DNA from: a virus
IMG/VR virus record: IMGVR_UViG_3300049847_000068
Location: 1-49,835 of that record
Direction: 5' to 3' (one strand)
Length of the DNA: 49,835 nt
This document shows, one piece after another, positions 5,302 to 37,783 of this stretch. The notes below the pieces were generated by a model. It searched no databases. It saw only the letters and a program-made list of their open reading frames with translations, and was not told the DNA's origin. The position numbers and the translations under genes were made by a program. The first letter of the stretch is position 1; every line of letters starts with the position of its first letter.

Positions 5302-5316
5302 GGTATAACCTGAATT

Positions 5317-6087: not shown

Positions 6088-6089
6088 CC

Positions 6090-6593: not shown

Positions 6594-6601
6594 CCCGAAA
6601 A

Positions 6602-6973: not shown

Positions 6974-7034
6974 CCCTATGTCGACGCTATCGACACGTCG
7001 AAAAGTCAAGAGCAAAGCAGGGGCGTCGCATTAA

Positions 7035-15150: not shown

Positions 15151-18100
15151 TTGGCGAACATTTACGACGTCGTCGACAAACAGAGAGCGGCTCTTCTCAA
15201 GAGAGAGTACGACACTGTCAAACGACTCGTTCGAGCCTACGAAGTGGCTCAGCTCAAAGTCGAGAAGTCGATCAAGCTCTTTCAGCTCAAGATCGAGAAC
15301 GCGCAAGCGGCAGGCTTGACCCCGTCGCTGTCGTGGTATTACCAAGAAGCTCGACTTGAGAACATACTCCGAGAGATCAGAGGTCATCTCGACGAGTACG
15401 CGAAAGATGCTGTCGAGTTCGCGTCGACAGCTCGCGACGACGCTTATCAGCTAGGGGCCGTCCATGCTCTTCGACTCGCAGAAGCTCAAGTTTACGGCGA
15501 CATCGCAGGGTTACACTCGACAGCGTTCGCGAACGCTCAGGCTCTGCTGTCCGGTACATCTCCACTCAAGAAGCTCTTCGATGACATAGGCCCGACAGCG
15601 ACGACGTCAGCGAGGGCTCTTTTCGCTGAAGCGATAGCAGAAGGGTGGAACCCTCGAAAGCTAGGAGTTCAGCTCGCGAGTCAGATCGACGGGCTCGTCA
15701 ACAAGCGCGGCGTCTTGATCGCTCGAACGGAGATCATTCGCTCATACCGGACAGCGAACACTGACGTCTACAAACGAAACGCTGACGTAATAAGGGGCTG
15801 GCGGTGGACAGCCGCTAAGACCGCCGCGACCTGCGCCATGTGTCTTGCGCTCGACGGTGAGATATTCCCTGTCGATCAGACGCTGTCGAGCCACCCGGCT
15901 TGTCGTTGCTCGATGGTTCCCCTACCTAATACTGACTTCGGCGGGCCTCAGCCGCAAAGCGGCGAGAAGTTCTTTCAGAATCTCAGCGAACGCGAGCAGA
16001 ACGCGACGCTCGGCAAAGGTAAAGCCGAGATGTATCGAGCAGGGCAGATCACGCTCAAAGATAACATTCATTGGGTCGACTCGCCTGAATGGGGTCGACA
16101 GCCAGCTTCTCGACGTCTTGATAATCTCAAAGCGAAGTATCTCTCGAATGAACTCCCTTCTCAGCGAGGGTATCTGAAGGTGTCGAGCTTCGAGCCGCGA
16201 CCTGCTCAGCTTCTGAGCGACTTACTGACAGAAGCAGAACGCTCAGCGAACGACCCTGTCGTCAAAGCTCTCGACAAGTGGGCTAAGGTTCCGACATTCA
16301 AGTCAGGCGACAAGAAGCTGACGTTCCCGACAGTAAAGAAAGCTCCGTATAAAGCTCTTGCTAAAGACTTGAAGTCACTCGACTCGACCATCGAAGACGT
16401 CGAGCTGTCGTCGATGACGTCGACGCTTCGCTGGATCGGCGACGACAAAGTTAAAGCGATGATCTCGAACTTAGGGGACGGCCCTGATCTCCCTGTAGTC
16501 TTTCGCTCGAACGGTCGACTATACATTCACAACGGCGACAGCGTCGCTCGATTGCAAGCTAAAGCGATGCTAGGGCAGACGAAAGCATCTGTCAGAGTCT
16601 TCGACGCCGACGCCCTTGTCGTCACGAAGAGCCCGCTCGATCTCGCGAAAGAAGCAGTTCAGGCTCTCGGTGTCAAGAAGATCGAGATCAGAGCAGGAGT
16701 ATCAGATGCTGATGCTGTCAAATCGCTCGAATGGGCGGCCGATCGGTTCAAGGTGACAGGCGTCGTTCCGAACAATCTTGAAGTCTGGAACGGCTCGACG
16801 ACAGGGGTCAGCGGAACGTCGATGGTCGTCGGGACTGACTTGTCAGACTACGTTGCTGAAGACATCGTCGACACTCTCAACAATTCATGGATGACGCGAA
16901 CCTCTGGCGACGCGACGATCAGACAGCTCAAGACGAAGACGGTTCAAGTCTCTCTCGACAGAGCTGAGAACACTGAGGCCAAGCTCTATGCTTCGCGATT
17001 CACTATCGACAGCGTAAAAGCTGAGCCGTTACTCGACGAGTTCGCCAAACAGCGTTACAATCTGATCTCTCACGATGCCTTCGCTCTTTCTGCTGTCGAC
17101 GACGCGGTCAAAGAAGCCGTCATTCTCTATCGTCGCGGCGAATACCGACTCGGCTCCTTGCCCGAAGAGATCGAGAAGGCGTTCTTGAAGCAAGCCCAGA
17201 CGATCATAGGCAAGAAGAAGACGCTCCCAGCGTTTACAGACTCAGAGAACATCTTATTCCACCAGATAGGTCAGCAAGCGGGCTCAAATCCGGGCGGCAA
17301 ATACTTGGGCATGGACGGCGTCGAGCGATACGTCAAGTTCTATGACAACCCTGAACGGTCAATGGTCGAGCTGATCGCTAACTCGATTTATGAGGCGAAC
17401 GGAATCAACGTTCCGAAAGCTCTGATCTTCGATCACGGCGCAAAGAAAGCGTTCGCGACAGAGATCATCGAGTCAAATCAGACAATCGCGTCGATGGGTG
17501 GCGTCTCAGGAGTCGACGTCGGCTTCTTGAAAGATGCTTTCGACGGGTATCTGACTGACGCCTTCTTATCGAACTGGGACGTCATCGGTACAGACGAAGC
17601 GAACATGGTGATCGCGGGTGGGAGAGTCTTTCGAATCGACAACGGCGGTACGTTCATCTTCCGCGCTCGCGGCGGCGACAAAGCTCAGTCGATCTTGACT
17701 TCGTTCGACGACTTCTGGACGCTCGCAGGGCCAAGCGGGCAATACGGCCCCGTTCTAAAACGTCTAGGCTTCGACACGCTCGAAGATGCTGAAGCTCTGA
17801 TTAAAGTTCAAGCGAAGAAGCTCTCGAAGACGCTCGACAAGATCGCGACGACAGATAGCGGCTGGCGAGCTTACTTCGACAAGCTGACAGGGGGAGCGTT
17901 ATCAGATACAGCAAAAGGGCGTATGGCTGAGATGATGATCGAGCGACGGAAACTTCTCGACGCTCAGATGACCCAGCTCGAAGCAAGAGCGAAAGCTCGC
18001 AAGGCCGCGCTTAAAGCGGCGGGCAAAGCTAAGAAGAAGCCGCTCAAGATGAAAGGCGCATACCTGCCTGACGGGACTCGATTCATGGACGCGAACAATA

Positions 18101-18867
18101 TTCAGTACGACGAGATTGTCAACCTGCCTATATGGGATCAACTCGACCCGGCTCTAACAAAAGCGGAAAACTATCTTACAGGAACAGGAACTCAAGACGA
18201 ATCTCTCAAGCAGATTATCGAACTACAAAATCGAGCAGGGAAGCCGAAGGCCGCGACTAAAGCCGATATCGACGTCGCTGACTGGGTCGCGTTTCGAGGC
18301 GTCAGCGAAGAGAAGTTCGCCAAAGATTACTACGACGGCGACTTGTTTCACGGGCTCGGCTATTACGGCAGTGGAACGTATACAGCTTCAATCAGAAAGA
18401 CAGCGGTCGGCTCGCTGAAGCCACATCGACCCGACGCGCTGTTGAGGGCTATCGACGAAGCGAAGGGCTACGCTGAAAGTCGATCAAACAATTTACGCGG
18501 CGTGAAGAAAGGGCTTATATCCATGCTCGTCGAGCCTGACGCGCTCGTCGTCAGCCATAACGATATGACGAAAATTCAATCCGCTCTTCAGAGGCTCATC
18601 ACATCGCTCGAACGTGCGGCGCACATTGCAGGTGATACAGCGACTATAGCTCGCCTTGCTAGTATTCATAGAATCGCACAAGACGAAGGTCGACTCGCCG
18701 CGATTCTAGGCTTCGACGGAATCGACTATTGGCAAGGAGAAGGCATGGGCTCTTATCTCGTTTTGCTTCATAGGCAAAAAGTTCGCGTCATGCACTCGAA
18801 CGCTTGGACTCACTTTTACAAGAAGATCATGGAGGCGATTGAACGATGGACATTCAAAGAACAGTAA
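15151..18867 (+). CDS. giant MuF minor head polyprotein with ParB-like, kinase-like and ADP-ribosyltransferase-like domains
   Basis: 1238 residues from TTG 15151; a typical MuF/SPP1 gp7 protein has 300-500. Residues ~1-265 are the helical minor-head region and MuF domain: IARTEIIRSYRTANTDVYKR, C228/C231 and HPACRCS (H248, C251, C253). Residues ~405-495 resemble a ParB/Srx fold (LPVVFRSNGRLYIHNGDSVA). Residues ~500-695 are unrecognised. Residues ~700-885 look like a HipA/PI-kinase fold with K729 (RYVKFY), D810 (SNWD), N818 and D830 (FRIDNGG). Residues ~1040-1225 look like an ADP-ribosyltransferase: R1049 (AFRG), a GSGTYTA motif (S1074) and a closing GFDGIDYWQGEG then YLVLLHRQ. Probably packaged in the head and injected. 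Overlaps the next gene by 22 bp. Confidence 0.8.
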   Translation: MANIYDVVDKQRAALLKREYDTVKRLVRAYEVAQLKVEKSIKLFQLKIENAQAAGLTPSLSWYYQEARLENILREIRGHLDEYAKDAVEFASTARDDAYQLGAVHALRLAEAQVYGDIAGLHSTAFANAQALLSGTSPLKKLFDDIGPTATTSARALFAEAIAEGWNPRKLGVQLASQIDGLVNKRGVLIARTEIIRSYRTANTDVYKRNADVIRGWRWTAAKTAATCAMCLALDGEIFPVDQTLSSHPACRCSMVPLPNTDFGGPQPQSGEKFFQNLSEREQNATLGKGKAEMYRAGQITLKDNIHWVDSPEWGRQPASRRLDNLKAKYLSNELPSQRGYLKVSSFEPRPAQLLSDLLTEAERSANDPVVKALDKWAKVPTFKSGDKKLTFPTVKKAPYKALAKDLKSLDSTIEDVELSSMTSTLRWIGDDKVKAMISNLGDGPDLPVVFRSNGRLYIHNGDSVARLQAKAMLGQTKASVRVFDADALVVTKSPLDLAKEAVQALGVKKIEIRAGVSDADAVKSLEWAADRFKVTGVVPNNLEVWNGSTTGVSGTSMVVGTDLSDYVAEDIVDTLNNSWMTRTSGDATIRQLKTKTVQVSLDRAENTEAKLYASRFTIDSVKAEPLLDEFAKQRYNLISHDAFALSAVDDAVKEAVILYRRGEYRLGSLPEEIEKAFLKQAQTIIGKKKTLPAFTDSENILFHQIGQQAGSNPGGKYLGMDGVERYVKFYDNPERSMVELIANSIYEANGINVPKALIFDHGAKKAFATEIIESNQTIASMGGVSGVDVGFLKDAFDGYLTDAFLSNWDVIGTDEANMVIAGGRVFRIDNGGTFIFRARGGDKAQSILTSFDDFWTLAGPSGQYGPVLKRLGFDTLEDAEALIKVQAKKLSKTLDKIATTDSGWRAYFDKLTGGALSDTAKGRMAEMMIERRKLLDAQMTQLEARAKARKAALKAAGKAKKKPLKMKGAYLPDGTRFMDANNIQYDEIVNLPIWDQLDPALTKAENYLTGTGTQDESLKQIIELQNRAGKPKAATKADIDVADWVAFRGVSEEKFAKDYYDGDLFHGLGYYGSGTYTASIRKTAVGSLKPHRPDALLRAIDEAKGYAESRSNNLRGVKKGLISMLVEPDALVVSHNDMTKIQSALQRLITSLERAAHIAGDTATIARLASIHRIAQDEGRLAAILGFDGIDYWQGEGMGSYLVLLHRQKVRVMHSNAWTHFYKKIMEAIERWTFKEQ

Positions 18868-20735: not shown

Positions 20736-21860
20736 ATGCCTTTCGTAGAACAGATCACTTTCACGCTCAACAAGCTGAACCCGTATATGCTCGCAGACCG
20801 AGCCATTACTTTAGCTCGACGCTTTCAAGCGTCTTCGACTTTTCTTAAGGGCGCGCCGCTAGGTCAAACGACGACTGGCGTCAACGCAGTTCAGACGTTC
20901 ACGGTCGCAGGAACGCCAACAGGCGGCTCGTTCAAGCTCTCATTCATGGGGCTCAAGACGACAGCTATCGCGTGGAACGCTTCAACAGCGACAGTACAGG
21001 CCGCGCTCGAAGCTCTCGCTTCAGTAGGAACAGGCGGTATCGTTGTAACAGGTGCGGGCGCGTTACCCAGCAATGCTCACACGTTCACGTTCTCAGGGAC
21101 TGCTCTCGCGGCGGCTCCGCAACCGCTTGTAGTCTTCGAAACTGCTGATAACTTGCTTACAGGTGGCACGTCCCCGACTGGAGCAGTAGCAAACACGACG
21201 ACAGGCGTCGCGGCAGGGGCTCTCAAAGCGTGGGTCGGTGATCTTATCACTCCGCCGACGATCCCGACTGTATCGACTGTCGCAGGTGGTTCAGTCTTCG
21301 GCGACGGTACGATCACAACCCCGTATACAGTGACAGTCACGTTCTTCAACGAAACTGGAGAAACGACAGTATCGCCCGCCGCTCAAGCTCTCGTCACGTC
21401 GACGAACAGAACGATTCGAGTCGCGGCTTACAGCTCTGTAAACGCGAACATTCAAGGGGCTCGCTACTATGTCAACGGAGCCTTCGCGGGCTCGACGAAC
21501 GTCTCAGGCGGTAACATCGCTCAGACTGACTTGACAGGCTTCTCTGCAACAGCAGGGCAAGCCGCCCCTGAGATTAACGGCTGTTTCGCTACTCGCGACG
21601 GTTCGCACGTTCTTCGAGGCTTCTCTCTCGCCGACTTCTCGACCGACTCTGGCGGTAACGTCACGTTCGGGCTCGACGCGATAGGTATGGAGCATGGGCA
21701 AGAGATGCGAGACGCTCCGTACTACGTCGACGGAATCTTCAGAATGGGCGACCTTTCTGGGATTACAGCGAACAACGGCCCGCAACTTTCCCGCTTTGGT
21801 CGGTTCATCGCAGGACTTTACTCCGATGCTGAGGGCATCTACCGTTTCGGTCAGCTATAA
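20736..21860 (+). CDS. head decoration protein with inserted Ig-like and FN3-like domains
   Basis: 374 residues, CTCGGAG upstream. The N-terminal ~45 and C-terminal ~95 residues (DAPYYVDGIFRMGDLSGI ... RFGRFIAGLYSDAEGIYRF) look like a lambda gpD-like decoration protein and lie between scaffold and major capsid genes as gpD does. Between them, residues ~50-155 form an Ig-like domain (TFTVAGTPTGGSFKLSF ... VQAALEALASVGTGGIVVTG) also found twice in the tail tube gene. Residues ~165-270 are an FN3-like domain (VTVTFFNETGETTVSPAAQ). The inserts would project from the capsid surface and may bind host or mucus glycans. Confidence 0.75.
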   Translation: MPFVEQITFTLNKLNPYMLADRAITLARRFQASSTFLKGAPLGQTTTGVNAVQTFTVAGTPTGGSFKLSFMGLKTTAIAWNASTATVQAALEALASVGTGGIVVTGAGALPSNAHTFTFSGTALAAAPQPLVVFETADNLLTGGTSPTGAVANTTTGVAAGALKAWVGDLITPPTIPTVSTVAGGSVFGDGTITTPYTVTVTFFNETGETTVSPAAQALVTSTNRTIRVAAYSSVNANIQGARYYVNGAFAGSTNVSGGNIAQTDLTGFSATAGQAAPEINGCFATRDGSHVLRGFSLADFSTDSGGNVTFGLDAIGMEHGQEMRDAPYYVDGIFRMGDLSGITANNGPQLSRFGRFIAGLYSDAEGIYRFGQL

Positions 21861-23984: not shown

Positions 23985-24580
23985 GCATCCCCCAAAATGT
24001 CGGCATAAAAAGCGTACAGCATCGAAAAGCGATGGGGAACGCTCGAACAGAAGCGAGGGCGTTCATGCTCCCGATTCTTCGCGACGCTGTCGGCCCTGAC
24101 TATGTCGGGGCGACGAGTAACGCCTACGGCCCTGAGCGCGTCGACGCCGCTTATCAGTTAACCATCGACAAAGAGACGACTCAGAACATCATCGCATTCG
24201 GACGACTCGAAGCGTTCTCATCTGAGCAGGTGCAAGGCGACATTAGGCTCGCAAACAAAGAAGCATATCGACTTTATTGGCTCCCTGTCGCATATTCAGC
24301 AAGCGAAACAGACTACTCTCATAACCCGATGGTCTTACCCTCAGAGGTCAACCCCGTGTTTCCGCAGGCTGTCGATATGATCGCGGCTGGCATGAGAATC
24401 TGGATTGCTCTCGCGTCAGGATACATACCGGGGGCATCGACAGCAGGGGCTCTCGACGCTTCGACGGTGACCGAGTTCTTCGTCGTCGACGATTACTCTG
24501 ACTCGACAGGTGATCTCGTCGAGTTCGTCGCGACTGTAGTCAGAACAGACTCTCCGCGTCGACTGGTGGCTCTAGCATGA
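23981..24580 (+). CDS. head-tail connector region protein, function unclear
   Basis: 199 residues. Not confidently recognised. Position between the adaptor and the tail-terminator-like gene suggests a head closure or stopper protein. Strand-rich with QLTIDKETTQNIIAFGRLEA and a C-terminal FFVVDDYSDS segment. Confidence 0.65.
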   Translation: MSIPQNVGIKSVQHRKAMGNARTEARAFMLPILRDAVGPDYVGATSNAYGPERVDAAYQLTIDKETTQNIIAFGRLEAFSSEQVQGDIRLANKEAYRLYWLPVAYSASETDYSHNPMVLPSEVNPVFPQAVDMIAAGMRIWIALASGYIPGASTAGALDASTVTEFFVVDDYSDSTGDLVEFVATVVRTDSPRRLVALA

Positions 24581-25050
24581 AAGAACTCGCGATTATTGAA
24601 CGATATATCTTCGGGATTCTCAAGACGAGAGCTGACGTCTACGGATGGAAAGCAGAGATCGCGCCGTTCGACGTCCCACCGCCTGACAGTCATCTCCCTA
24701 TCATCGTTCCAGCTCTGTACTTTCGCTTCGTCAGTACAGGAGATCAGAACTCGATAGGGACAGGGCCGCGGCTTCTTTCGTGGGCAGACTATGAGATCGG
24801 AGTCTTTCACGCGAGCAATACATTCGGAGCAAGTCTCAAGACGACGGGCGCGGCTGTTCCTCTTCTGACTGTTCTCACGTTCATCGACGACGCTTTTCAG
24901 AACTATACGCCGCCCATCGTTCAGCCTTCTGATGGGACGATCTACTCTTCAGAGCGACTTTGGGCTGTTCGCGTTCCTGAGCGTGGCCCTGATGGGAAGA
25001 TTTACAATCGAGACGGCGGCGTCTACCGATTCATCGTCGAGGCGACTTAG
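24577..25050 (+). CDS. putative tail terminator / tail completion protein
   Basis: 157 residues, ATG overlapping the previous stop. The start IIERYIFGILKTRADVYGW, a strand YEIGVFHASNTFGASLKTTG, and the terminal VYRFIVEA have the size, order and shape of tail terminator proteins (lambda gpU / gp17-like). Assignment rests mainly on gene order. Confidence 0.6.
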   Translation: MKELAIIERYIFGILKTRADVYGWKAEIAPFDVPPPDSHLPIIVPALYFRFVSTGDQNSIGTGPRLLSWADYEIGVFHASNTFGASLKTTGAAVPLLTVLTFIDDAFQNYTPPIVQPSDGTIYSSERLWAVRVPERGPDGKIYNRDGGVYRFIVEAT

Positions 25051-25053: not shown

Positions 25054-25572
25054 TTGTCTTATGTCTCGTCTGTCAAGGTTGAGCTGAAGAAGCTCGATCA
25101 TCTATCAAACACCATCGCGAAGACAGTGATCGACGCTTCTGCTCGCGAGCTGGCTGTCGAAGTTCTTCGTCGCTCGATGGTCTTCTTAGAACAACAGGTA
25201 TACACTCGACCGAACGCTCAAGTCACGTCAGAGAAGACGTCGACGACACCTGAGCCGACGGGTGCGATGATGAACAGCGGATATATCAGAACGTTCACAG
25301 GAGAGCTTCCTGTCGGTGCGAAAGACGAGAAAGCCGCGATGTCGTCAGCTCGTTCGAAGAACGCGAACGTCACATTCGGGCAAGCTCCCCCCGGCCCTCA
25401 TCGACTGGGGCAAGCTCAGGTTCTTTTCGCGGTAGAATACGCGCTCTATGTCGAGATGGGGACGATACTCGGCATGGTCGCTCGACCGTATCTTCGACCT
25501 GCCGCTGACGAAGTCCAACAGTTCGCAGAGAGGTTCGTCATCGCAAAGCTCAAAGCCGCAGGATTCTCTTAA
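25054..25572 (+). CDS. HK97 gp10-like tail component
   Basis: 172 residues from TTG 25054. VLFAVEYALYVEMGTI followed by VARPYLRPAADEVQQF matches the conserved YA-x-x-V-E-x-GT ... PFLRPA block of the gp10/minor tail family. The N-terminal region (ARELAVEVLRRSMVFLE) is helical, as in that family. Confidence 0.78.
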   Translation: MSYVSSVKVELKKLDHLSNTIAKTVIDASARELAVEVLRRSMVFLEQQVYTRPNAQVTSEKTSTTPEPTGAMMNSGYIRTFTGELPVGAKDEKAAMSSARSKNANVTFGQAPPGPHRLGQAQVLFAVEYALYVEMGTILGMVARPYLRPAADEVQQFAERFVIAKLKAAGFS

Positions 25573-25573: not shown

Positions 25574-28500
25574 ATGCCCACGAAGACACTCGTTCCGACT
25601 ATTGCAAACGCGCTAGGAAGCTGGTCTGACGGCTTCAACTCGCTAGGCTACTATATTGACGGGCGCGGCGCGTATAACAGCGGAGCTGGCTTCCTAGCCG
25701 TCACGAACATGACAGGGCGTTTCGACTTGTCGACAGCAGACAGCGTCGCGGGCTTCGTGATCGACGTCGTCGCTCGATTGAATACGTCGCTCGCTGTTAA
25801 CGATACATTCACTGAGCCCGGTGTTTGGCTTCACAATCACGACGGAGAGATCAACGCTGATTGGCGTCGACCGTTTACAGGAGCAGACCCATCATATCAG
25901 GGGCTGAACGCTGAGGGCAGAACATACTACGCGGCTCAAAACGGAAGCGGCCCGACGACGAACGGAGCTGAACACTTCCTGAATCAGTTCGTTCCTGCTT
26001 CTGCTGACTACGCTGTCGAAGCTCGAATCGCCGCCGCTTCGGACGGAGGCTCAGGCGAATACGCGGAGATTTACGCGAGAGCAACGACGCCTTACTCGTT
26101 TTACATTCTCCAGTACGACGAAGGGGCGAACACATGGCGACTAGGAGTCTGGAACGCTGGGGCTCGTCTAGTCGGTCAGATGACTCAGCTCGCGTCATAC
26201 GCTGGCGACGTGATCTCTTCGCCCGGATCGAGGCTCGCGAAGCTCGAAGTTCAAGGGACGTCTATCAAAGGGTATGTCGACGGGGTTCTTCGAATGTCAG
26301 CGACTGACGCGACAATCGCTTCTGCAGGATATCCGGGGCTTCGTCTCGACGCTGGTGCAAGTCGAGTTTACGGCGTAGTCGTTACAGCTCTTTACGATCT
26401 AGGCTCAGCGAAGACAGTGACGCGAGTCAGAAAGCGAATCGGCTGGCTCGACAACGCTCAAGTCGAGATTATCATCGAGGGTTCAAACGACGGGACGTCA
26501 TGGGTCAACGCCTATACGGGGATTGCTGTCGCAGGGCCTCCGGGTACAGGCTCGTTTCAATGGCTCAGCGAGTTCGACACTACCGATATTACAGGAACAG
26601 CGTATCGCTATTGGCGAACATACGTCTATGACCCATCGACAACGGGGGCAGACGCAAGAATCGGAGACTTTCGACTCTATGTCGGCGGCGTTCTCGTCGA
26701 CGATCTCGACGTCGGCGTCGCGATGCGATACGGTCACAGGGTGGGTTCAACAGCTCATAACTGGTCAGAAGGTACGTCGACAGCTCTCTTCGAAGACAAC
26801 TCAGTCGGCGACAACTCGACATACATCGGAGGCACGATCTCAGGCGGTGGAATCGACCAGCAAGGTCTTCAGTTCGACACGTTTACAGTGTCGGACATCG
26901 TAAGCGGTTCTTTGAACGTCTATTTATCAGCGAATGGAACAACTGCAAGAGGTAACGCGAAGAACGTCATCTTGTCGTCGTCTTTCCAGACCTATCAACT
27001 CGGCGCGGCGAGCGACTTATGGGGTGGGGCATGGTCTGCTGACGACGTCAGAAGTCTTCTGTTCGGGCTACTGCTCGAACGGGGTTCAGTCGGATCGCTC
27101 GTCGAAGTCGACGCCATTCGTGCCACAATATATCACACGACGTACGGGAGTTCAAAAATGCCATTAAGAGAACAGGTCAGACAACAAATTCTAATCGGTC
27201 GAGAAGTCGGAACGAACGCCGCTCAGACTCTAACAATCACAGGAACGCCAACAGGCGGCACGTTCAAACTAACATTCAACGGAATCGAAACCGCTACGAT
27301 TGCATATAACGCGGCGGCGGCGGCTGTTCAGTCAGCTCTCGAAGCTATATCGACAATCGGAACGAATAACGTCTCATGCTCTGGCGGTGCATTGCCCGCG
27401 ACGCCTGTCATCATCACGTTCGTAAACCAGCTCGCGGCAGAACCCCAGAATCTTATCACTGTAACAAGTCCTGCATTTACAGGCGGCTCGTCTCCTGCTG
27501 GCGCGGTCACGAACACGACTACGGGCATTCGAGCTGTCGGGGCTGGCGCAACAGCGTCGATCAGGCTTCGACATACGCGGATGCAAATTCAGCCGTCGCC
27601 TGAGTTCGTCACTCATCGACCTGCTGGCGAAAAGCTGACGAATCATCAACTCGTCGTAAAAGAAGGCTCAGAAGCAAGCATCGACGGGCTCCCGACTTAT
27701 GACGAGATGGGCTGGCTCTTGTCGAGTCAGATCGCTCGACCTAACACGTCGACGCTTCAGACGTCAGTCGCATATCGACATGTATTCGCGTTCGACAATC
27801 GAGTTCGAGACGGCATCGCGACGTTTCAAGCAGAGTATGGAGATCAGTTCGCTCGCGCTCATAGAGTAAAGGGTCTGATCGTCAACTCTTTGAAGCTCGG
27901 CCTTCGTCAAGACGGCGTCGATCTCGGCGGCTCAGCTATCGCTCGAATCTTAGAAGATGGGATCGCGATGAACCCCGGAGTCGCAACGGTGCAAACGTTC
28001 GCGATGTCAGGTACAGGAACGTTTACGCTACGCTGGAAAGGCCAAGAAACGGCTGTTCTCAACGCCGCGACAGAAACGTCAGGAACTCTTCAGACCGCTC
28101 TCAGGGCGTTGGCAGGTATCAACAACTCGACTCAGCTGACTGTCACAGGCGCAGGAACCCCGTTCACGATCACTTTTGGAAACGGCGCGGGTGGCCCCTT
28201 CTTGGGCTTCCCTCAGCCGCTACTTGAGATCAGAACGATCAGTGGCTCTCCTGCTGTTACGATGACGATGACGACTCGCGGCGGTTACACTGACTTCCCC
28301 GGCGTGGTCATCTTGCCTCGACATATTGAATACTTCTTGTCGACGACGCTCGCGGCTCTTTCATCGTCGAAGCTGACGGACGCTTTCTCGACTTCGTTCG
28401 AAATGGCGAATCGAGCTATGCCCGTATACAATCTCGACAGAAGCGAGACGAGCTGGTTCAACTATGCAGAGAAGAGCGATATCGACATCAAGTTCGGTCT

Positions 28501-28777
28501 GGTCGCTCATGCTCAGAGTTCAGCCATGCAGTTCTTGACTCAGGCTCGAAGCGATACGATTCTCTTTCAGAGGATTCTAGCTACAGGCCCATTGATCGGA
28601 GCGTCAGCGTTTCCGCATCGACTTCAGATCGACTGTCCTGTCAAAATATCGAAGTTCGGGCCGTTCGAAGACAACCAAGAAGTCTACGCTTTCGACTATG
28701 AACTCGACGGCTGTCAAGACGACGCGACGAATACAAGTCTCGTTGTCACTCTCGACAACGGCGTCGCTTCTTACTAG
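25574..28777 (+). CDS. tail tube protein fused to a large N-terminal carbohydrate-binding-like region
   Basis: 1067 residues from ATG 25574; upstream in-frame codons overlap the previous gene. Residues ~1-280 look like a concanavalin-type jelly roll (VEARIAAASDGGSGEYAEIY ... RLAKLEVQGTSIKGYVDGVL). Residues ~280-375 look like an F5/8-type C domain (VEIIIEGSNDGTSW ... YRYWRTYVYD). Residues ~380-525 are another beta-sandwich ending VDAIRATIYHTTYG. From residue 529 (MPLREQVRQQILIGREVGTN) a major tail protein begins, with an Ig-like domain inserted at ~550-650 and another at ~805-905 (nt 27989-28290). Tube core includes KEGSEASIDGLPTYDEMGWL. A hairpin follows the stop. An internal start is likely (next entry). 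Confidence 0.75.
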   Translation: MPTKTLVPTIANALGSWSDGFNSLGYYIDGRGAYNSGAGFLAVTNMTGRFDLSTADSVAGFVIDVVARLNTSLAVNDTFTEPGVWLHNHDGEINADWRRPFTGADPSYQGLNAEGRTYYAAQNGSGPTTNGAEHFLNQFVPASADYAVEARIAAASDGGSGEYAEIYARATTPYSFYILQYDEGANTWRLGVWNAGARLVGQMTQLASYAGDVISSPGSRLAKLEVQGTSIKGYVDGVLRMSATDATIASAGYPGLRLDAGASRVYGVVVTALYDLGSAKTVTRVRKRIGWLDNAQVEIIIEGSNDGTSWVNAYTGIAVAGPPGTGSFQWLSEFDTTDITGTAYRYWRTYVYDPSTTGADARIGDFRLYVGGVLVDDLDVGVAMRYGHRVGSTAHNWSEGTSTALFEDNSVGDNSTYIGGTISGGGIDQQGLQFDTFTVSDIVSGSLNVYLSANGTTARGNAKNVILSSSFQTYQLGAASDLWGGAWSADDVRSLLFGLLLERGSVGSLVEVDAIRATIYHTTYGSSKMPLREQVRQQILIGREVGTNAAQTLTITGTPTGGTFKLTFNGIETATIAYNAAAAAVQSALEAISTIGTNNVSCSGGALPATPVIITFVNQLAAEPQNLITVTSPAFTGGSSPAGAVTNTTTGIRAVGAGATASIRLRHTRMQIQPSPEFVTHRPAGEKLTNHQLVVKEGSEASIDGLPTYDEMGWLLSSQIARPNTSTLQTSVAYRHVFAFDNRVRDGIATFQAEYGDQFARAHRVKGLIVNSLKLGLRQDGVDLGGSAIARILEDGIAMNPGVATVQTFAMSGTGTFTLRWKGQETAVLNAATETSGTLQTALRALAGINNSTQLTVTGAGTPFTITFGNGAGGPFLGFPQPLLEIRTISGSPAVTMTMTTRGGYTDFPGVVILPRHIEYFLSTTLAALSSSKLTDAFSTSFEMANRAMPVYNLDRSETSWFNYAEKSDIDIKFGLVAHAQSSAMQFLTQARSDTILFQRILATGPLIGASAFPHRLQIDCPVKISKFGPFEDNQEVYAFDYELDGCQDDATNTSLVVTLDNGVASY
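27158..28777 (+). CDS. major tail (tube) protein from a nested internal start
   Basis: ATG 27158 is in frame, and GGGAG at 27146-27150 ends 7 bp before it. It gives a 539-residue protein beginning exactly where the tail tube homology begins. In most phages the tube is an independent abundant protein, so I infer that this start supplies most tube subunits and that the long form is a minor, displayed variant. Confidence 0.6.
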   Translation: MPLREQVRQQILIGREVGTNAAQTLTITGTPTGGTFKLTFNGIETATIAYNAAAAAVQSALEAISTIGTNNVSCSGGALPATPVIITFVNQLAAEPQNLITVTSPAFTGGSSPAGAVTNTTTGIRAVGAGATASIRLRHTRMQIQPSPEFVTHRPAGEKLTNHQLVVKEGSEASIDGLPTYDEMGWLLSSQIARPNTSTLQTSVAYRHVFAFDNRVRDGIATFQAEYGDQFARAHRVKGLIVNSLKLGLRQDGVDLGGSAIARILEDGIAMNPGVATVQTFAMSGTGTFTLRWKGQETAVLNAATETSGTLQTALRALAGINNSTQLTVTGAGTPFTITFGNGAGGPFLGFPQPLLEIRTISGSPAVTMTMTTRGGYTDFPGVVILPRHIEYFLSTTLAALSSSKLTDAFSTSFEMANRAMPVYNLDRSETSWFNYAEKSDIDIKFGLVAHAQSSAMQFLTQARSDTILFQRILATGPLIGASAFPHRLQIDCPVKISKFGPFEDNQEVYAFDYELDGCQDDATNTSLVVTLDNGVASY

Positions 28778-28862: not shown

Positions 28863-29255
28863 ATGCCTACACTCAAATCTATTCTTCGCCCGTTCGAGAC
28901 TGTCGCGGTGTCGTTCGGGTCAGAGAACGTCTCGGTCACGTTTCGCCCTCAGTATCTAACACCTGAGTTCGAAGACAAGCTCAAGGGGCTTAACGAAGAA
29001 GACAAGGCTACAGAAGCCTTTCTGTCGATGTTTATCAGCTTGATCGACTCATGGGACTTGAAGCTCGATGACGAAGACAAGAGCCCCATTCCGATCACGC
29101 TCAAAGCTCTGAAGTCTATCCCTTACGATGTACTAGGCGAGATACTTGACAAAGTTCAGGAGGCCGCAACCCCAAAATCCAAGAAGGGAGCGAACTCAGA
29201 CGATACATCGCTTCCTCTGGACGATTCGGATCAGTTCCCGACTGGTACGGACTAA
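28863..29255 (+). CDS. tail assembly chaperone, short form (lambda gpG-like)
   Basis: 130 residues. Small, acidic, between tail tube and tape measure: the invariant position of gpG. The opening LKSILRPFETVAVSFGSENVS and helical core (DKATEAFLSMFISLIDSWDL) fit the chaperone family. The slippery heptamer C CCA AAA at 29171-29177 is in the correct phase to allow a -1 shift into the overlapping frame. Confidence 0.85.
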   Translation: MPTLKSILRPFETVAVSFGSENVSVTFRPQYLTPEFEDKLKGLNEEDKATEAFLSMFISLIDSWDLKLDDEDKSPIPITLKALKSIPYDVLGEILDKVQEAATPKSKKGANSDDTSLPLDDSDQFPTGTD

Positions 29256-29432: not shown

Positions 29433-32400
29433 ATGTCGTCGACCGTTGCTAGAATATCAGCTGAAATTGATCTCAAAGATCGACTGACTAAGCCCCTCAA
29501 AGACGCGGGGACGAACGTCAAGAAGTTCGCTGACAAAGCTGACGCTGATCTCAAACGGTTCAGCGAATCAGCGGCTAAGTCTTGGAAGTCGTTCGGCGAA
29601 CACATGGGCGTAGCCGCCAAGAAAGCTCAGGTCGCGGGTCTTGCTCTTTCTGTCGGCGTCACTGCTCCGCTCGCCGCCATGGCGGCGAAGGCAGTCAAGA
29701 GCGCGTCAGACTTGAACGAATCGTTCACGAAGACCGAGCAAGTCTTCGGGAAAGCGTCAGCAAGTGTCGTGGCCTTCTCGGAGGCGAGCGGAAACGCGAT
29801 GGGGCTGTCAAAACAAGCCGCGCTCGACTACGCTTCGTCATTCGGTCTTATTCTCGAAGCAGGGGGCAAAACAGAAGAACAGTCAGCTCGAATGAGCCTC
29901 GTCTTGTCAAAACTGTCAGCCGACCTCGCGTCGTTCTATAATGTCGACGTCTCAGAAGCGGCTCTGAAGATCAAAAGCGGGCTGGTCGGAGAAGCTGAGC
30001 CTCTCAGGGCGTTCGGTGTCTTGCTGTCTGAAACTGCTGTCAAAGCCCGCGCTCTCGCGATGGGGTTCACTCTTCAAGCGGGACAGCTATCAGAAGCGGC
30101 GAAGGTTCAAGCTCGATACGCTATCATTCTCGATCAGACGAAGAAGGCTCAGGGTGACTTTGCTCGAACAAGCGACGGGCTCGCGAACTCGTCTCGAATC
30201 GTCAAGGCGAACCTTGCTGATCTCTCTGCTGAGCTAGGGACTGTTCTTTTGCCGTATGCTCAAGGGGCTGTCAAGTGGATAAGTTCTCTCGTCGAAAAGT
30301 TCAAGGCTCTTTCCCCTGCTCAGAAGACGCTCGCTGTCTCGATGCTCGCTATCGCGGCGGTTACAGGGCCAGTTCTCGTCGCGCTCGGCGCGATAGGGAA
30401 CATGGTGTCAGCATACGCGGCGATGACGACAGCGTCGGCGGCGGCAGGTGTCGCGTCAATCGGGCTCAAAGCGACGCTGATCGGCTTTCTCGTTCCGCTT
30501 GCAGAGATCATCGCTGTCGGTGCGGCTGTCGCGCTCGTCATCTACGGGCTGAAGAAAGCGTTCGACTATCTCACTGGCGCGTCTGAAAATGCGGCTGGCG
30601 CGATTCAAGACGAGATCAACGCAAGCACGGCTTCAATCAGAGCGAAAGCAGAGAACACTCAAAAGACAGCAGAGCTTTCGCGAGAGTACGAGATACTGCT
30701 GAACAAGAAGAAGCGAACAGCGACAGAAACTGAGCGGCTGAACAAGCTGTTCAGCGAGATCGCGGCGACGAACCCTGATCTCGTCAAAGGCTACAACGCC
30801 CAAGGCGAAGCGATTCACGGCTTAACTAAGAGCTACTACGACTTGGCAAATGCGGCGTCGACAGCGGCAGAAGAACAGCGAAAGTCGCTCTTGACAGCTA
30901 CGTTCACGCCAAAGCTCGACTCGATCTTGACAGCATTGTCAGACGCAAGAGCGAAGCGAGACGACATTGTCGCAAACGGAGTTCCTGTAACGACAGGTCA
31001 GCGTCCTGATACTTATGGCGTCGCTGTTCGATTGGCGAAGTCTGGAGCAGAATACAATCAAGCTCTAGGGCAAGCGACGACGACGCTTCGCGACCTTGAG
31101 ACTCAAGCGGCGGCTGTCCGAGAGCAGATCAAGTCGGCGTCAAGAGCTTCGAAGCTTCTCGGCCCTATCGGTGACGGCTCAGGTGGAGTCAGCAGTACAG
31201 GCTCAGGCAACAAGCATGGCGGCAAGAATCTCGAAGACGTCGCGCCGCTCAACCCGTTTGACGCTGACCCAACTCTTCGAGATCGCATGGAGGCGATGAA
31301 GAAGCTGATCGAAGATACCGCTCAAGCGACTCGCGACCTCGTCATCGCTCGAATGAAAGCGTCGGGCGCGGCTATCGGTGATCTCATATCGATGGAGCGA
31401 TTCGGCAAGCTATACAGCGAGCTAACAACCGACGAAGAGAAAGCGTTCGTACATCGAACTCGCGACTTGCAAGTCTTTCAGACTGAACAAGAAGCTCTCT
31501 CGAAAGCGACTGAAGAGAACGTTCAGCGATTGCAAGCCGCTCAGCGAGCAAGAGAAGAGCTGAACAAAAGCGTCTTCGCTTCTGCTTCGGCGTACAAAGC
31601 AGAGAGGGAGCAACTTTACTTCACCACTGAACTTGACAAAGCAAGATGGGAGATCACTTCTGGCGGTCTTCGCGAAGCGACGAATCTGTCAAAGGCGTTC
31701 TATCTGACTCAAGCGGCTCTTCTCGATCAGAGCAGGCAAGCGAAAGACGCTGTCGCTCGATGGGCGGCGTATTGGTCGAAGATCGTCACTGACAATAAAG
31801 AATGGATTAAGTCTCAGAGGGCGACGGCGAATGAGCGGTATCAAGACTATATCAAAGAGCTGACGAAAGACCTTCTCAAGCTGAGCGGGGCTCAGAACAA
31901 GGTTCTTACGTCAGAGCTGTTCGATCAGTTCAAGGGCGCGGGAGCAGGTATGCCGGGACTTCAAGGGGCTCTTCAAGTGATGAAGATGGTCAAGAAAGTC
32001 ATGGACGATATCAAGCGAAACAAAGACATCGAAGAGAAGCTGGCTGTCATTCAGAAGATCGCTCGCGGTATCGAAGACATATTCAACAAAGCCCTAAACG
32101 ATCTTCTTGAGAACGGGTTCAAGAACTTCTTTCAGTCTGTTCTCGACGGTTTCAGAAACTTAGCGAGGGAGATGGCTATTCAGTTCCTTAAAATGCAACT
32201 GATGCGGGCTCTTCTATGGGGCGTCGGTGCGTTATTCGGCTCTGGCGCGAGAGCAGATATGCGAAACGGGATACCGGGGCTCGCGACAGGCGGGCAAGCG
32301 TTCGCAGGTCAGCCGTATCTAGTCGGCGAACGAGGCCCTGAGCTGTTCGTTCCTGACGTCGCGGGTCAAGTTCATCGAAACGATGAGGGCGCGTCTCGAA

Positions 32401-32540
32401 ACGCAAAGACAGACAGCTCGACTCATGTCGTCATCAATATGTCGGTTCCGAACTACAGCGCGTTTCGAAAGTCCGAGACTCAGATGATCGCTCAGGTATT
32501 TGGTCGAGCGGCAAGAGCGCAAGCGAGGCAGGGTAGATAA
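29433..32540 (+). CDS. tape measure protein
   Basis: 1035 residues, the longest tail gene of normal type. N-terminal coiled coil (LTKPLKDAGTNVKKFADKAD), a hydrophobic block at about residues 290-385 (AVSMLAIAAVTGPVLVALGA, LIGFLVPLAEIIAVGAAVAL), a charged helical middle and a C-terminal FATGGQ-like segment (GLATGGQAFAGQPYLVGERG followed by PELFVP) common at the end of tape measures. It sets tail length; at ~0.15 nm per residue this predicts about 150 nm. Start ATG 29433, 19 bp after the GT stop. Confidence 0.95.
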   Translation: MSSTVARISAEIDLKDRLTKPLKDAGTNVKKFADKADADLKRFSESAAKSWKSFGEHMGVAAKKAQVAGLALSVGVTAPLAAMAAKAVKSASDLNESFTKTEQVFGKASASVVAFSEASGNAMGLSKQAALDYASSFGLILEAGGKTEEQSARMSLVLSKLSADLASFYNVDVSEAALKIKSGLVGEAEPLRAFGVLLSETAVKARALAMGFTLQAGQLSEAAKVQARYAIILDQTKKAQGDFARTSDGLANSSRIVKANLADLSAELGTVLLPYAQGAVKWISSLVEKFKALSPAQKTLAVSMLAIAAVTGPVLVALGAIGNMVSAYAAMTTASAAAGVASIGLKATLIGFLVPLAEIIAVGAAVALVIYGLKKAFDYLTGASENAAGAIQDEINASTASIRAKAENTQKTAELSREYEILLNKKKRTATETERLNKLFSEIAATNPDLVKGYNAQGEAIHGLTKSYYDLANAASTAAEEQRKSLLTATFTPKLDSILTALSDARAKRDDIVANGVPVTTGQRPDTYGVAVRLAKSGAEYNQALGQATTTLRDLETQAAAVREQIKSASRASKLLGPIGDGSGGVSSTGSGNKHGGKNLEDVAPLNPFDADPTLRDRMEAMKKLIEDTAQATRDLVIARMKASGAAIGDLISMERFGKLYSELTTDEEKAFVHRTRDLQVFQTEQEALSKATEENVQRLQAAQRAREELNKSVFASASAYKAEREQLYFTTELDKARWEITSGGLREATNLSKAFYLTQAALLDQSRQAKDAVARWAAYWSKIVTDNKEWIKSQRATANERYQDYIKELTKDLLKLSGAQNKVLTSELFDQFKGAGAGMPGLQGALQVMKMVKKVMDDIKRNKDIEEKLAVIQKIARGIEDIFNKALNDLLENGFKNFFQSVLDGFRNLAREMAIQFLKMQLMRALLWGVGALFGSGARADMRNGIPGLATGGQAFAGQPYLVGERGPELFVPDVAGQVHRNDEGASRNAKTDSSTHVVINMSVPNYSAFRKSETQMIAQVFGRAARAQARQGR

Positions 32541-32541
32541 T

Positions 32542-33183
32542 ATGGCGTTTCACAATGTCGTCTTTTTCGAAGATTATGCCCAAGGAGTGGTAGGGGGGCC
32601 GGAATTTCGAACAACTGTTGTATCGACCAGTTCCGGGTACGAACAGCGAAATGTAGACTGGGCGACAGCGCGGGGGCGTTGGGACCTTTCCCGGCTCCTC
32701 TACGACCCAACCGCAAGGGATGCGACGATTGCTTTCTTTCGCGCTCGAAAGGGTCGCGCTCATTCATTCTTATTCAAAGACTGGAACGACTACTTTGTCG
32801 GCATGACATGGAATCTCGTCACGAAGACGCTCGATCACAACGGCGCGCATAACTTCGCGACAGGCGACGGCTCGACGACCATCTTTCAGATTTATCGAAT
32901 CTACAGCTCAGGCGGGTTCACTGAGAGCAGAAAGATCACGCGACCGAAGTCAGCTATCAAAGTTTACAAGAACGGAGTCGAGCAGACTCAGCCGGGTCAG
33001 TGTTCGGTCGACTACTCGACGGGCTTGATTACTTTCGTCGCGGCTCCTGCGGCGGCGGCTACGGTGGGTTGGAGCGGCGAGTTTTACGTTCCTGTTCGTT
33101 TTGATACTGACTCTCTAAACGTCGACTATATGTCGCCGACAGCGGGAAACGCTCCGCTCCCTGTCGTTGAGGTTCGAGAATGA
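32542..33183 (+). CDS. DUF2460-family distal tail protein (GTA-like)
   Basis: 213 residues from ATG 32542, overlapping nothing; in-frame ATG 32500 lies inside the tape measure gene. FFRARKGRAHSFLFKDWNDY is the hallmark of DUF2460, present in Rhodobacter gene transfer agents and many siphophages. Residues following the tape measure at the tail tip. The first ~200 bases use different codons from the rest (few TCGA), suggesting recombination. Confidence 0.88.
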   Translation: MAFHNVVFFEDYAQGVVGGPEFRTTVVSTSSGYEQRNVDWATARGRWDLSRLLYDPTARDATIAFFRARKGRAHSFLFKDWNDYFVGMTWNLVTKTLDHNGAHNFATGDGSTTIFQIYRIYSSGGFTESRKITRPKSAIKVYKNGVEQTQPGQCSVDYSTGLITFVAAPAAAATVGWSGEFYVPVRFDTDSLNVDYMSPTAGNAPLPVVEVRE

Positions 33184-34058
33184 AGACGATACCCGGCCCG
33201 ACTCTTGCTCACCTGCAAGGCGAAACGACGAACTTCGCGCTCTGCTGGCTCATAGAGCGGCGCGACGGAACGATCAAAGGATTTACGAGCAACGTTGACG
33301 ATCTCGTCTGGCTCGACCCGGTAGGCCCCACGAATCGTACATTCAAAGCGGCGACGGGCGCAGGAGTGTCGAATCTGCAAGCGTCGACAGGGCGCGGAAT
33401 CGACAATATGACAGCTCTCGGCGTGATCTCTTCTCCTGACATCACTGAAGCCGATCTTCTTCGCGGGCTGTACGATGACGCGAAAGTTCAGATACTGCTC
33501 ATCAACCATCTCGACACGACTCAGTACATCGTTCTTCTGAAAGGGTATCTCGGAGAAGTGAAAGTCGGGCGCAAGAGCTTCGAGACTGAAGTTCGTTCGC
33601 TCATTCAGCGAGCGTCGCAGACAATCGGGAAAGTATGCTCCCCTTTGTGTCGAGTCAAGGTTCTGGGTGATAGCGAGTGTACCGTCAACCTAGCGGCGTT
33701 CACGTTCACGGCTCAGACGGTGTCGACAGTAGTCAGTCGCTCGAAGTTCAAGACAGCGAGCGCGGGCGTAGTGGGAAAGCCAGCGTATTACTTCGCATAC
33801 GGCAAGCTGACATGGACAAGTGGCGCGAACGCAGGCAAGAGCGTCGAAGTTCGTTCTCACGATACAGCTTCACCGTGTCAGCTTACGCTTGCTGAGATTA
33901 TGCCTTTCGACATTGTCGCAGGAGATCAGTTCACGATCATCGCAGGATGCGACAGGCTCTCGTCGACGTGCAAGAATACATTCAATAACATTCTAAACTT
34001 TCGAGGCGAGCCGTTCGTTCCGGGCTCTGACTCTGTCTTGAAGATAACATCGGTATGA
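33180..34058 (+). CDS. DUF2163-family tail tip protein (GTA-like)
   Basis: 292 residues. CWLIERRDGTIKGFTSNVDD, the SPLCRVKVLGDSEC segment with paired cysteines and a C-terminal AGCDRLSSTCKNTFNNILNF RGEP region match the DUF2163/BR0599 family of baseplate hub proteins. The four cysteines probably bind a metal. Overlaps both neighbours by 4 bp, as in GTA clusters. Confidence 0.9.
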   Translation: MKTIPGPTLAHLQGETTNFALCWLIERRDGTIKGFTSNVDDLVWLDPVGPTNRTFKAATGAGVSNLQASTGRGIDNMTALGVISSPDITEADLLRGLYDDAKVQILLINHLDTTQYIVLLKGYLGEVKVGRKSFETEVRSLIQRASQTIGKVCSPLCRVKVLGDSECTVNLAAFTFTAQTVSTVVSRSKFKTASAGVVGKPAYYFAYGKLTWTSGANAGKSVEVRSHDTASPCQLTLAEIMPFDIVAGDQFTIIAGCDRLSSTCKNTFNNILNFRGEPFVPGSDSVLKITSV

Positions 34059-34540
34059 AGTCTGTTCACGATCCTGAAACTATCGTTCGCCTAGCTCGAA
34101 GCTGGGTCGGGACGCCATACGTGCATCAAGCGAGAGGGCCGAAGGGCGAAAACGGCGGGACGGATTGCGTCGGGCTCTTGATCGGCGTCGCGGTCGAGCT
34201 AGGCATCATCGAAGCGAGCTATGACCCGACAGGCTACTCTTGGGAGACAGACGGCTCTCAGCTCAGAGCTGAGCTTGAAAAGTGGGCGACGCTCGTCGCG
34301 TTCTCTGACGTTCGACAGCCGCTCGACTTCTGGCTCGAATCACTCAGCGCGGGCGACATAGCAGTATTCAAAGTCGTCGGCTTGCCTCAACATACAGCGT
34401 TCGTCTCTGAGATCGACTACGGTGTCAGCGGTTCGTTCTTCGGCATGATTCACGCTTACAACCCAGCCGAGAAAGTGATCGAGCATATCTTAAGCGACAG
34501 ATGGGTCGGTCGACTGATCGAAGTCTGGAGGCTCAAGTAA
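34055..34540 (+). CDS. NlpC/P60-type tail peptidase
   Basis: 161 residues. RLARSWVGTPYVHQ and GGTDCVGLLIGVA carry the catalytic Cys38; LPQHTAFVSEI supplies His113, and MIHAYN has a third polar residue (H133). This is the GTA gp14-like cell wall hydrolase placed between DUF2163 and TipJ-like proteins. It would open the peptidoglycan during entry. Confidence 0.92.
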   Translation: MKSVHDPETIVRLARSWVGTPYVHQARGPKGENGGTDCVGLLIGVAVELGIIEASYDPTGYSWETDGSQLRAELEKWATLVAFSDVRQPLDFWLESLSAGDIAVFKVVGLPQHTAFVSEIDYGVSGSFFGMIHAYNPAEKVIEHILSDRWVGRLIEVWRLK

Positions 34541-36931
34541 ATGGCTGAGCTTGCTCTCGGCGTAGCGGGTATCGCTGTCGCAGGTATCCCCGGAATGGGA
34601 TTGACAGCTCTTGCGGGCTTTCAGATCGGCGTCACGCTGGGCTCGTTGCTCTTCCCTCCTAGCGGGCCTCATCTTGATCGAGGTCGAATCGACGAGATGC
34701 GAATCCAAGGGGCAGGACAAGGCTCTCCGATTCCTATCGTCTACGGTCGAAACAGAGTCGCTGGAACGATCATCTGGGCGACAGGCTTGAAAGAGACGAA
34801 GAAGACGTCGTCGGCAGGTGGCAAGGGCGGCGGCGGGGGCGCGACAACAACAGATTACAGCTACAAGACTTCGCTCGCTGTCGTTATCTGCGAAGGAACA
34901 CTGACGAAAGTTCGTCGAATCTGGGCGAACGAAAAGGTCATTTACGATTGGAGATCAGGGGGAAGTCCGACTTATGCCGCTTGGCTCGACACGACGAAGG
35001 TGAGAGTCTATCTAGGAACGCAAGTCGTCGCAGATGCGGCGATAGAAGCAGACAAAGGGGTCGGCTTCGTTCCTGCTCATAAGGGCTTGGCCTATGTAGT
35101 CTTCGAAGATATGCCGCTGTCGGAAGTCGGGAATCAGATACCGAACTTTACGTTCGAAGTCGAGTCGAGCCATGCAAATCTTCAGACCGCGCTCGATGAC
35201 GTCGCGAGTCGATGCGGCTTAACAGGTGACGTCGACTTTTCTGCTGTTTCGAGTTATCCAACTCGCGGGCTTGTCGTCTCAGCTCGAACAGAAGCGTCGA
35301 GAGTAATGGAAACGTTCGCAAAAGCTAACTGGTTCGAGATCGTCGAGACAGGCGGGCAGATAAAAGCCGTTGTCAGAACAGGCGTCACAGCGATGACGAT
35401 CCCGTCGACAGATGTCGGCGCGTCGTCAGACGGCGAAGTCGTCCCTTATGTCGAGTCGACGAGAGCTGAAGAGACAGAGCTTCCTCGCGAGATCGCTGTC
35501 AGCTATCAGTCAGAAGCGATTGACTTTCTTACATGGACTCAAACAGCAAGAAGAACCGTTCGCTGGTCAGAGAATCAAGAGCAGGTCGCGTTTCCTATGT
35601 CGCTTGGCGATGCATGGGCTCGCTATCTAGCCGACTCGTTTCTGATGGAGACATGGGCTTCAAGATCGAGACATTCTTTCACGCTTCCTTACAAGTATCT
35701 TCAACTCGATCCCGGCGACGTGATAACGATACCGGACGAAGGCGGCTCGACTCGCGACGTCAGAATCGTCGAGATGTCGATGGGTCTTCTTGCTCAGATC
35801 GAAGTTCGCGCTGTCGACGACAACCCGATCATCTACGTCGACCCCGTTCTTCCTGCTTCTGTCCCGACTGGCGGCGGCGCGGGCATCTCAGCAACGACGA
35901 ACGCTGATCTGCTCGCGTTCGAGGTTAACGCCGTTTACGACGATCTCGCTGACTCGCCTCAGATCGGGCTCGTCGCAGGTCGAGCGGCGGCTGGCTGGCA
36001 CGGCGGCGAAGCTCAAGTCGACCCTCGACTGACAGCTTTCGGCTCAGGCCCTGTCGTCAAGCTCGCGACGTTCACATCGTCGAGCGACTTCGGCTATACA
36101 ACGAACGACGCTTTCGGCATATTGGGCCACGTCGGGACGACAGCTCTTCCGTACAAGCTCGACACGGTGAACACTGTCAGGGTCACGATGACAAGCGGGA
36201 CACCAGCAAGCGTTACCTACGATCAGATGATCCAAGAAGGGCGCAACCTTTGCATAGTAGGGAAAGAGATTCTTCAGTTCCAGACAGCGACACTCGTCAG
36301 CGGCACGACATACACGCTCTCGAACCTGCTTCGCTTCAGACGAGGGACTGACTACTTACTGACACTCTTGAGTCTCGGCTTATGGGATTCAGTCGCGAAC
36401 GAAGGGTTCATCATCGTTAACACTCAAGCGAAGAACTTCGCCTACGAGCCTTCTCAGATCGGAGCAACAAGCTCTTTCAGAATGATCGAGACAGGCAAAG
36501 ATTACAGCGCGGGGCTCCCTGCTTTTAACGAGCCGCTCGTCTTAGCGGGTAACGCTCGCAAGCCTTACGGCCCTTGCGACATTCGCTATTCAGGCGACAG
36601 ATCGAGCGGGAACGCTGATCTTGTCTTCAACTGGACTCGTCGAGTCAGAAAGAAAGGCGAGCTTGACAACTACGTCGACGCGCCGCTCGACGAGATCGTC
36701 GTCGTCTACAACGTCGAGATTTGGAAGAACGATCTCACTGTCAAGTATGCGACTTATCAGGTGACGTCAGTCTTGCCTTGGACGTATACCATCGCTCAGC
36801 AGACAACAGACACTGTCAACGCTTCGAGCTTCTATGTCATCATCAGGCAGGTTTCAGCAGAAGCGGGCATCGGCGAAGGCCACCCTTCAGCCTTGAAACT
36901 CGTCTTAACGAGTAACGACATCGACTATTAA
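34541..36931 (+). CDS. TipJ-like tail tip / host-specificity protein
   Basis: 796 residues. Begins with a Gly/Ala-rich hydrophobic segment (about 5-45), then MRIQGAGQGSPIPIVYGRNR and VAGTIIWA, DYSYKTSLAVVICEGTLTKV and RRIWANEKVIYDW, the signature of GTA gp15/TipJ and lambda J-type hubs. Contains a Gly-rich loop (KGGGGGAT). The C-terminal half is beta-rich and ends in an FN3-like segment. It forms the central tip that follows DUF2460, DUF2163 and the peptidase. Confidence 0.88.
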   Translation: MAELALGVAGIAVAGIPGMGLTALAGFQIGVTLGSLLFPPSGPHLDRGRIDEMRIQGAGQGSPIPIVYGRNRVAGTIIWATGLKETKKTSSAGGKGGGGGATTTDYSYKTSLAVVICEGTLTKVRRIWANEKVIYDWRSGGSPTYAAWLDTTKVRVYLGTQVVADAAIEADKGVGFVPAHKGLAYVVFEDMPLSEVGNQIPNFTFEVESSHANLQTALDDVASRCGLTGDVDFSAVSSYPTRGLVVSARTEASRVMETFAKANWFEIVETGGQIKAVVRTGVTAMTIPSTDVGASSDGEVVPYVESTRAEETELPREIAVSYQSEAIDFLTWTQTARRTVRWSENQEQVAFPMSLGDAWARYLADSFLMETWASRSRHSFTLPYKYLQLDPGDVITIPDEGGSTRDVRIVEMSMGLLAQIEVRAVDDNPIIYVDPVLPASVPTGGGAGISATTNADLLAFEVNAVYDDLADSPQIGLVAGRAAAGWHGGEAQVDPRLTAFGSGPVVKLATFTSSSDFGYTTNDAFGILGHVGTTALPYKLDTVNTVRVTMTSGTPASVTYDQMIQEGRNLCIVGKEILQFQTATLVSGTTYTLSNLLRFRRGTDYLLTLLSLGLWDSVANEGFIIVNTQAKNFAYEPSQIGATSSFRMIETGKDYSAGLPAFNEPLVLAGNARKPYGPCDIRYSGDRSSGNADLVFNWTRRVRKKGELDNYVDAPLDEIVVVYNVEIWKNDLTVKYATYQVTSVLPWTYTIAQQTTDTVNASSFYVIIRQVSAEAGIGEGHPSALKLVLTSNDIDY

Positions 36932-36940: not shown

Positions 36941-37783
36941 ATGAGCCTATCCCCTGTCTTAGCCGTCACTCAGATGACCCAATCTCAGAGTAACAAGGAC
37001 GTCACTGTAAACGATCACTTGAAAGCTCTTGAAAAGCAAGCGGGGTATCTCTCTCTCTCGATTGCTGGCGCGGCAGGGACTCAGAATCTCTCAGCTGACG
37101 ATGCTCGATACGGCGTCATCGAGTTTACAGGCGTTCTTACAGGTAATCGAGTCGCGAATCTTCCGTCTGGGTTCGACAGCGCGGCGGTCTATATCAACTC
37201 GACGACAGGCGCGTTCACTCTCTCTGTTCAGTACAACGGCGGGACGTCGATTCTTATCCCTCGCGGATGCGCTGTTCCTGTTCGCAAGTTCGCGGCTGTC
37301 GCCGCTTATGACTATCGAGCTGGGATGCTCAAGCTCCCTGAAGTCATCGCGACACGAATCACGTCGACGCAAGCCATGACGAACAACGCCGAGACAGTCA
37401 TTCAGTGGAACTCTGAGACTCGCGACACGGCAGATTCATTCGACTCGACGACGAACTGGCGATTCACTGCCCCCGTCGCGGGGCTCTATCGAATCGACGC
37501 GACAGTCGAGATCGACATCTCAGGCGCGGTAGCAGGAAACTACAACGGGCATATCGCAATTCGAAACAACGCGACAGTCGTTCGGCGCGGAGAGCAGTCG
37601 AACACAGGAACGCAAGCCGCAGGGACAACGTGCAGACATTCAGTATCAGCCCTACTTCAGCTTGCGGCGAATGATCTCATCGACGTAGTATTCAGTAACA
37701 CTCATTCGGCTGGGACGCTCGTCGCTGACTTCGGAGCTGAGAAGACCTACTTTCAGCTCGACTGTATCAGGCTAGGGACTTAA
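36941..37783 (+). CDS. tail fibre protein with C1q/TNF-like C-terminal domain
   Basis: 280 residues. An N-terminal attachment segment and a beta-rich region (residues 55-130; NLPSGFDSAAVYINSTTGAF) typical of collar-attached fibres. Residues ~140-280 are a C1q-like jelly roll: NWRFTAPVAGLYRIDATVEI, ATVVRRGEQ, LLQLAANDLIDVVF and a closing KTYFQLDCIRL. Such trimers bind cell-surface sugars. Confidence 0.82.
   Translation: MSLSPVLAVTQMTQSQSNKDVTVNDHLKALEKQAGYLSLSIAGAAGTQNLSADDARYGVIEFTGVLTGNRVANLPSGFDSAAVYINSTTGAFTLSVQYNGGTSILIPRGCAVPVRKFAAVAAYDYRAGMLKLPEVIATRITSTQAMTNNAETVIQWNSETRDTADSFDSTTNWRFTAPVAGLYRIDATVEIDISGAVAGNYNGHIAIRNNATVVRRGEQSNTGTQAAGTTCRHSVSALLQLAANDLIDVVFSNTHSAGTLVADFGAEKTYFQLDCIRLGT

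Follow-up and report, generated by a model that had tools for sequence, protein, structure and literature searches.

The window analysed here, the whole 49 835-nt stretch of viral DNA in IMG/VR record IMGVR_UViG_3300049847_000068, carries at 25574-28777 on the plus strand a single uninterrupted frame encoding 1067 aa, with a calculated mass of 113.1 kDa. As the earlier note had described, the frame is open throughout and places Met529 at 27158. Ahead of this methionine lie beta-rich, adhesin-like domains spanning some 528 residues, and behind it what reads as a complete tail tube (major tail) protein, nested in the same frame at 27158-28777 (+; 539 aa, calculated mass 57.2 kDa). The upstream neighbor encodes a neck or tail-completion protein of the HK97 gp10 type (25054-25572, +; PHROG phrog_5, E = 1.7e-9), and its TAA stop is followed immediately by the ATG of the long form at 25574. 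Downstream lie a small gene in the position of a tail-assembly chaperone (28863-29255, +), weakly similar to L009:3185-3697, and a tape measure gene (29433-32540, +) that matches PHROG tape-measure families such as phrog_1535 (E = 2e-20). The order is thus neck, tube, small gene and tape measure. A promoter scan gave a result near shuffle expectation.

Several other genes of the window are worth recording. A tail-tip module of the gene-transfer-agent type (32500-36931), comprising DUF2460, a BR0599/Gp84 hub and an Rcc01698-like host-specificity protein, has distant relatives in Caulobacter, Rhodobacter and a Microcystis phage, and is followed by a tail-fibre-like protein (36941-37783) whose C-terminal domain resembles C1q at a sub-threshold score. 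Between the portal and head genes, 14194-15147 encodes a TET-associated glycosyltransferase (Pfam TAGT, E = 5e-40), which suggests that the phage DNA is hypermodified. The 1238-aa product of 15151-18867 has a head-morphogenesis domain near its N-terminus only, and some 900 further residues match almost nothing.

The same in-frame fusion is found in a second virus, L001 (IMG/VR IMGVR_UViG_3300020195_000059), in which a gene at 5041-7629 encodes 862 aa with no stop between the two parts. It occupies the same slot between the neck genes and the tape measure, its start overlapping the neck stop as TAATG, and an internal ATG at 6001 is the equivalent of the Met529 site. The two fused proteins are about 66% identical, with 75% identity in the tube part and 51% in the N-terminal region where the two can be aligned. 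Divergence is ~0.6 at third codon positions, i.e. near saturation, and lower, 0.1-0.4, at first and second positions, indicating that the N-terminal region has been kept by selection as protein. The linker differs between the two viruses (GSSK vs GGRR), yet the frame is still open. The earlier note had allowed for a sequencing error hiding a stop or frameshift near the junction; a matching junction that stayed open through such divergence in an independent contig excludes this, and an artefact of sequencing or assembly that joined two genes by erasing a stop or frame break, for which we found no supporting point, can be set aside with near certainty. A programmed frameshift at the junction was also rejected, as the frame contains no stop in either the window or L001 and no canonical slippery heptamer was recognized by eye. 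Scans of viral sequences and genomes, together with tblastn of phage records, yielded no further fused relatives, and the fusion is carried within these sets by the window and L001 only.

To place the C-terminal part, stand-alone tube genes were collected in scans that used the neck protein as the first query and afterwards the tubes so obtained (L009, L010/L017, L018, L019, L020 and L013/L021). Met529 aligns with the start of these six free-standing genes, which share the motif M-x-x-R...G-x-E, and in the genomes where the slot was checked the stand-alone tubes sit after neck and terminator genes. An AlphaFold model of residues 529-1067, built from eight sequences, reached medium confidence (mean pLDDT 61). 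Its best Foldseek match in the PDB is the P74-26 tail tube (E = 4e-7); further matches are the T5 pb6 and DT57C tail tubes, tail-tip proteins, and the major tail protein of SH-Ab15497, the top matches being tail tubes with E-values of 4e-7 to 7e-4. Matches in the viral library include several annotated major tail proteins. Taken from alignment and model, the part from Met529 is a complete tail tube of the T5 pb6/P74-26 type, so the earlier proposal of a complete major tail protein at this position holds. The tubes of Mwe-JY26 and a Desulfofustis phage are syntenic with the window tube but show no detectable sequence relation to it. In the tail-tube slot of the Rhodobacter phage RcTitan, gp17 (L024:10535-12748, 737 aa), annotated as hypothetical, is a weak structural match and may represent a tube enlarged by long insertions.

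The window tube is enlarged by a beta domain of the phrog_2839/phrog_10909 type, inserted past the N-terminal arm (27215-27532, +) and absent from the L009-L021 tubes. A second copy lies at 27977-28282 (+) and matches the first with E = 3e-7 in BLASTP and 2.5e-8 in hhalign; it too is missing from the stand-alone relatives. The PHROG matches cover only this inserted domain, which is common to several phage proteins, and hence do not by themselves prove a tube. The label 'tail sheath' that comes with phrog_2839 was rejected likewise, as the match spans the inserted domain only and the domain is also present in 20736-21860. The latter gene, which immediately precedes the major capsid gene, has it at 52% identity (E = 4e-25), so that head-region and tail proteins have a module in common.

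The N-terminal region contains four segments. Residues 1-69 (25574-25780, +) are 40% identical to residues 1-72 of L001. Residues 70-267 (25781-26374, +) form a 198-aa block that falls in an alignment gap, being absent from L001; the front part therefore behaves as a swappable cassette. The earlier note saw a lectin-like domain here. The ConA/LamG-like character of the block was recognized by eye, as a pattern, and is putative; the block matches nothing in Pfam and nothing meaningful in the PDB, and what it does resemble is a free-standing, unannotated 206-aa protein of Rhizobium phage RHph_X3_15 whose gene adjoins the portal gene (26% identity over 194 aa; pairwise E = 9e-9, database-wide E = 0.09). 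The next segment (26375-26698, +) is 63% identical to L001 and is a candidate F5/8-type galactose-binding-like domain. This second proposal of the earlier note finds matches to Pfam F5_F8_type_C_2 (PF22633) in both viruses, at 14.6 and 16.0 bits against a cut-off of 27.8 (E = 0.05 and 0.02), i.e. below the curated threshold in each. The third beta-rich domain (residues 376-524; 26699-27145, +) is 47% identical to L001 and shows strands in a low-confidence model, with no profile match. A model of the N-terminal region from two sequences had a pLDDT of 30 and no confident fold. We also considered that the region might substitute for a missing tail terminator. This is unlikely, since the 157-aa product of 24577-25050 is itself weakly terminator-like (hhalign E = 0.012 against terminators, low probability).

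A Shine-Dalgarno sequence, GGGAG, lies at 27146-27150 (+) within Gly-Ser codons, 7 nt before the tube ATG, where the earlier note had placed it, and GGAGG stands 7 nt ahead of the ATG in L001. DNA conservation steps up at this ATG, from 7 of 15 identical positions before it to 13 of 15 after. To compare the site with other potential starts, we scored every in-frame ATG inside 12 large genes of the window and 6 of L001 by taking its best anti-Shine-Dalgarno pairing energy and subtracting the folding energy of the surrounding 50 nt; the score is simple and reads sequence signals rather than expression. ATG 27158 ranks first of 126 in the window (-4.3), and ATG 6001 first of 45 in L001 (-4.7, the runner-up being at +1.9). 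These values are level with those of the decoration gene starts (-3.7 in the window and -4.5 in L001) and the capsid gene starts (-3.4 and -4.3); the start of the long form scores less well (-1.0 and +3.1). When Shine-Dalgarno energy is taken by itself, about 7 of 128 in-frame ATGs in the window and 2 of 46 in L001 are equally strong; it is the combination with low mRNA structure that makes the internal start stand out. The idea that the tube is also made separately thus gains support in both viruses, and an excess of plain tube is plausible from these signals.

We propose, with a probability of roughly 0.6, that this is a nested tail-tube gene whose plain product is the major form and whose long form is a minor one that decorates the tail, incorporation and carbohydrate binding being the parts that we infer. 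Ribosomes initiating at the strong, unstructured start at 27158 would produce the plain 57-kDa tube, the bulk of the tail. Others, initiating at 25574, probably through coupling to termination of the neck gene, would read through to give the minor 113-kDa form. The long form would most likely co-assemble with the plain form, with its beta-sandwich, adhesin-like domains outside the tail, where they would aid reversible attachment to cell-surface glycans. The ratio of the two forms and the outward display are deduced in the same way. Deleting the N-terminus of the T5 tube protein abolishes tubes (PMC8718954), and Met1 of the P74-26 tube protein packs in the subunit and ring interface and helps to control assembly (PMC10034513). 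A load of 528 residues on the N-terminus of a tube subunit may thus hinder assembly, and an N-terminal role in assembly would be consistent with a requirement for plain subunits, in which Met1 is free.

As tube N-termini sit in ring interfaces, the long subunits may be few or confined to a special ring. In the latter case they would occur only at the tip of the tail or beneath the neck, in the manner of a collar or whiskers rather than along the shaft, perhaps because they fit only where one side is free. The long form also starts directly 3' of the neck gene, whose product is normally required in few copies. We regard this arrangement as unlikely though deserving attention: no sequence feature marks a special ring, and in its tube part the long form does not differ from the plain tube. 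It is less probable still that the fusion product is no tail component, its N-terminal region being cleaved off or the whole acting as a soluble assembly regulator or by-product, so that tails contain plain tube only. A large N-terminal load could indeed block tube polymerization; however, an independent N-terminal protein would need only a stop codon to end it, and neither virus has one, even though third positions are nearly saturated and the linker has changed. Although the open frame would permit every tube subunit to be long, with the internal start idle, this is very improbable, as the internal start has the best signals among in-frame ATGs in both viruses and Met529 corresponds to the gene start in stand-alone relatives.

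Mixed tubes of this general kind have precedents, to which we compared the proposed nested gene. In SPP1, a ribosomal frameshift yields a C-terminally extended tube form at a long-to-plain ratio of 1:3 (PMC8718954). There, too, the tube protein has two lengths (gp17.1 and gp17.1*), and the longer, minority form adds a beta-sandwich domain on the tail; it differs in that the addition is a single C-terminal FN3 domain made by frameshifting, whereas the window has ~528 N-terminal residues and an upstream start. Some lactococcal 936 phages (MTP-TpeX) likewise add binding modules C-terminally by programmed frameshift (PMC6669499), so that a portion of their tube subunits carries host-binding carbohydrate-binding modules; binding by the window domains is only predicted, and no relation between the two sets of domains was detected. 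The extension in the window is N-terminal and in the same frame as the tube, and candidate signals for both starts are present at the locus. T5 pb6 and P74-26 gp93, the best structural matches of the tube part, are two-domain subunits as well, but neither an N-terminal adhesin fusion nor a nested start is described for them in the literature surveyed, and in the T5 tube, unlike the proposed layout, every subunit bears a single Ig-like domain at its C-terminus. The lysA gene of mycobacteriophage Ms6 is known to yield two products (Lysin384 and Lysin241; PMC3111421), one of them initiated in frame at an internal site that follows a consensus ribosome-binding site; it is an endolysin gene with neither a structural nor a display role. 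The earlier note had not seen such a dual-expression display described in this form. Two-form tube display as such is known from SPP1 and the 936 phages; the novelty lies in the N-terminal position of the extension and in the nesting of the start, as no such tube extension was found in the open-access literature searched.

We lean somewhat towards a new layout of tail decoration, in which the tube gene is nested in an adhesin-tube gene and start strength, rather than frameshifting, sets the share of subunits with a swappable N-terminal adhesin; in the two-form decorated tubes found in the literature, the binding domains are C-terminal and arise by frameshifting. The presence of the lectin-like cassette in one of two related viruses and its absence from the other suggests an exchange site for attachment modules. 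If the reading is true, tube subunits would cope with a large addition at the N-terminus even though this end is believed to gate assembly, and the locus would offer a natural model of how display on a tube can be graded.
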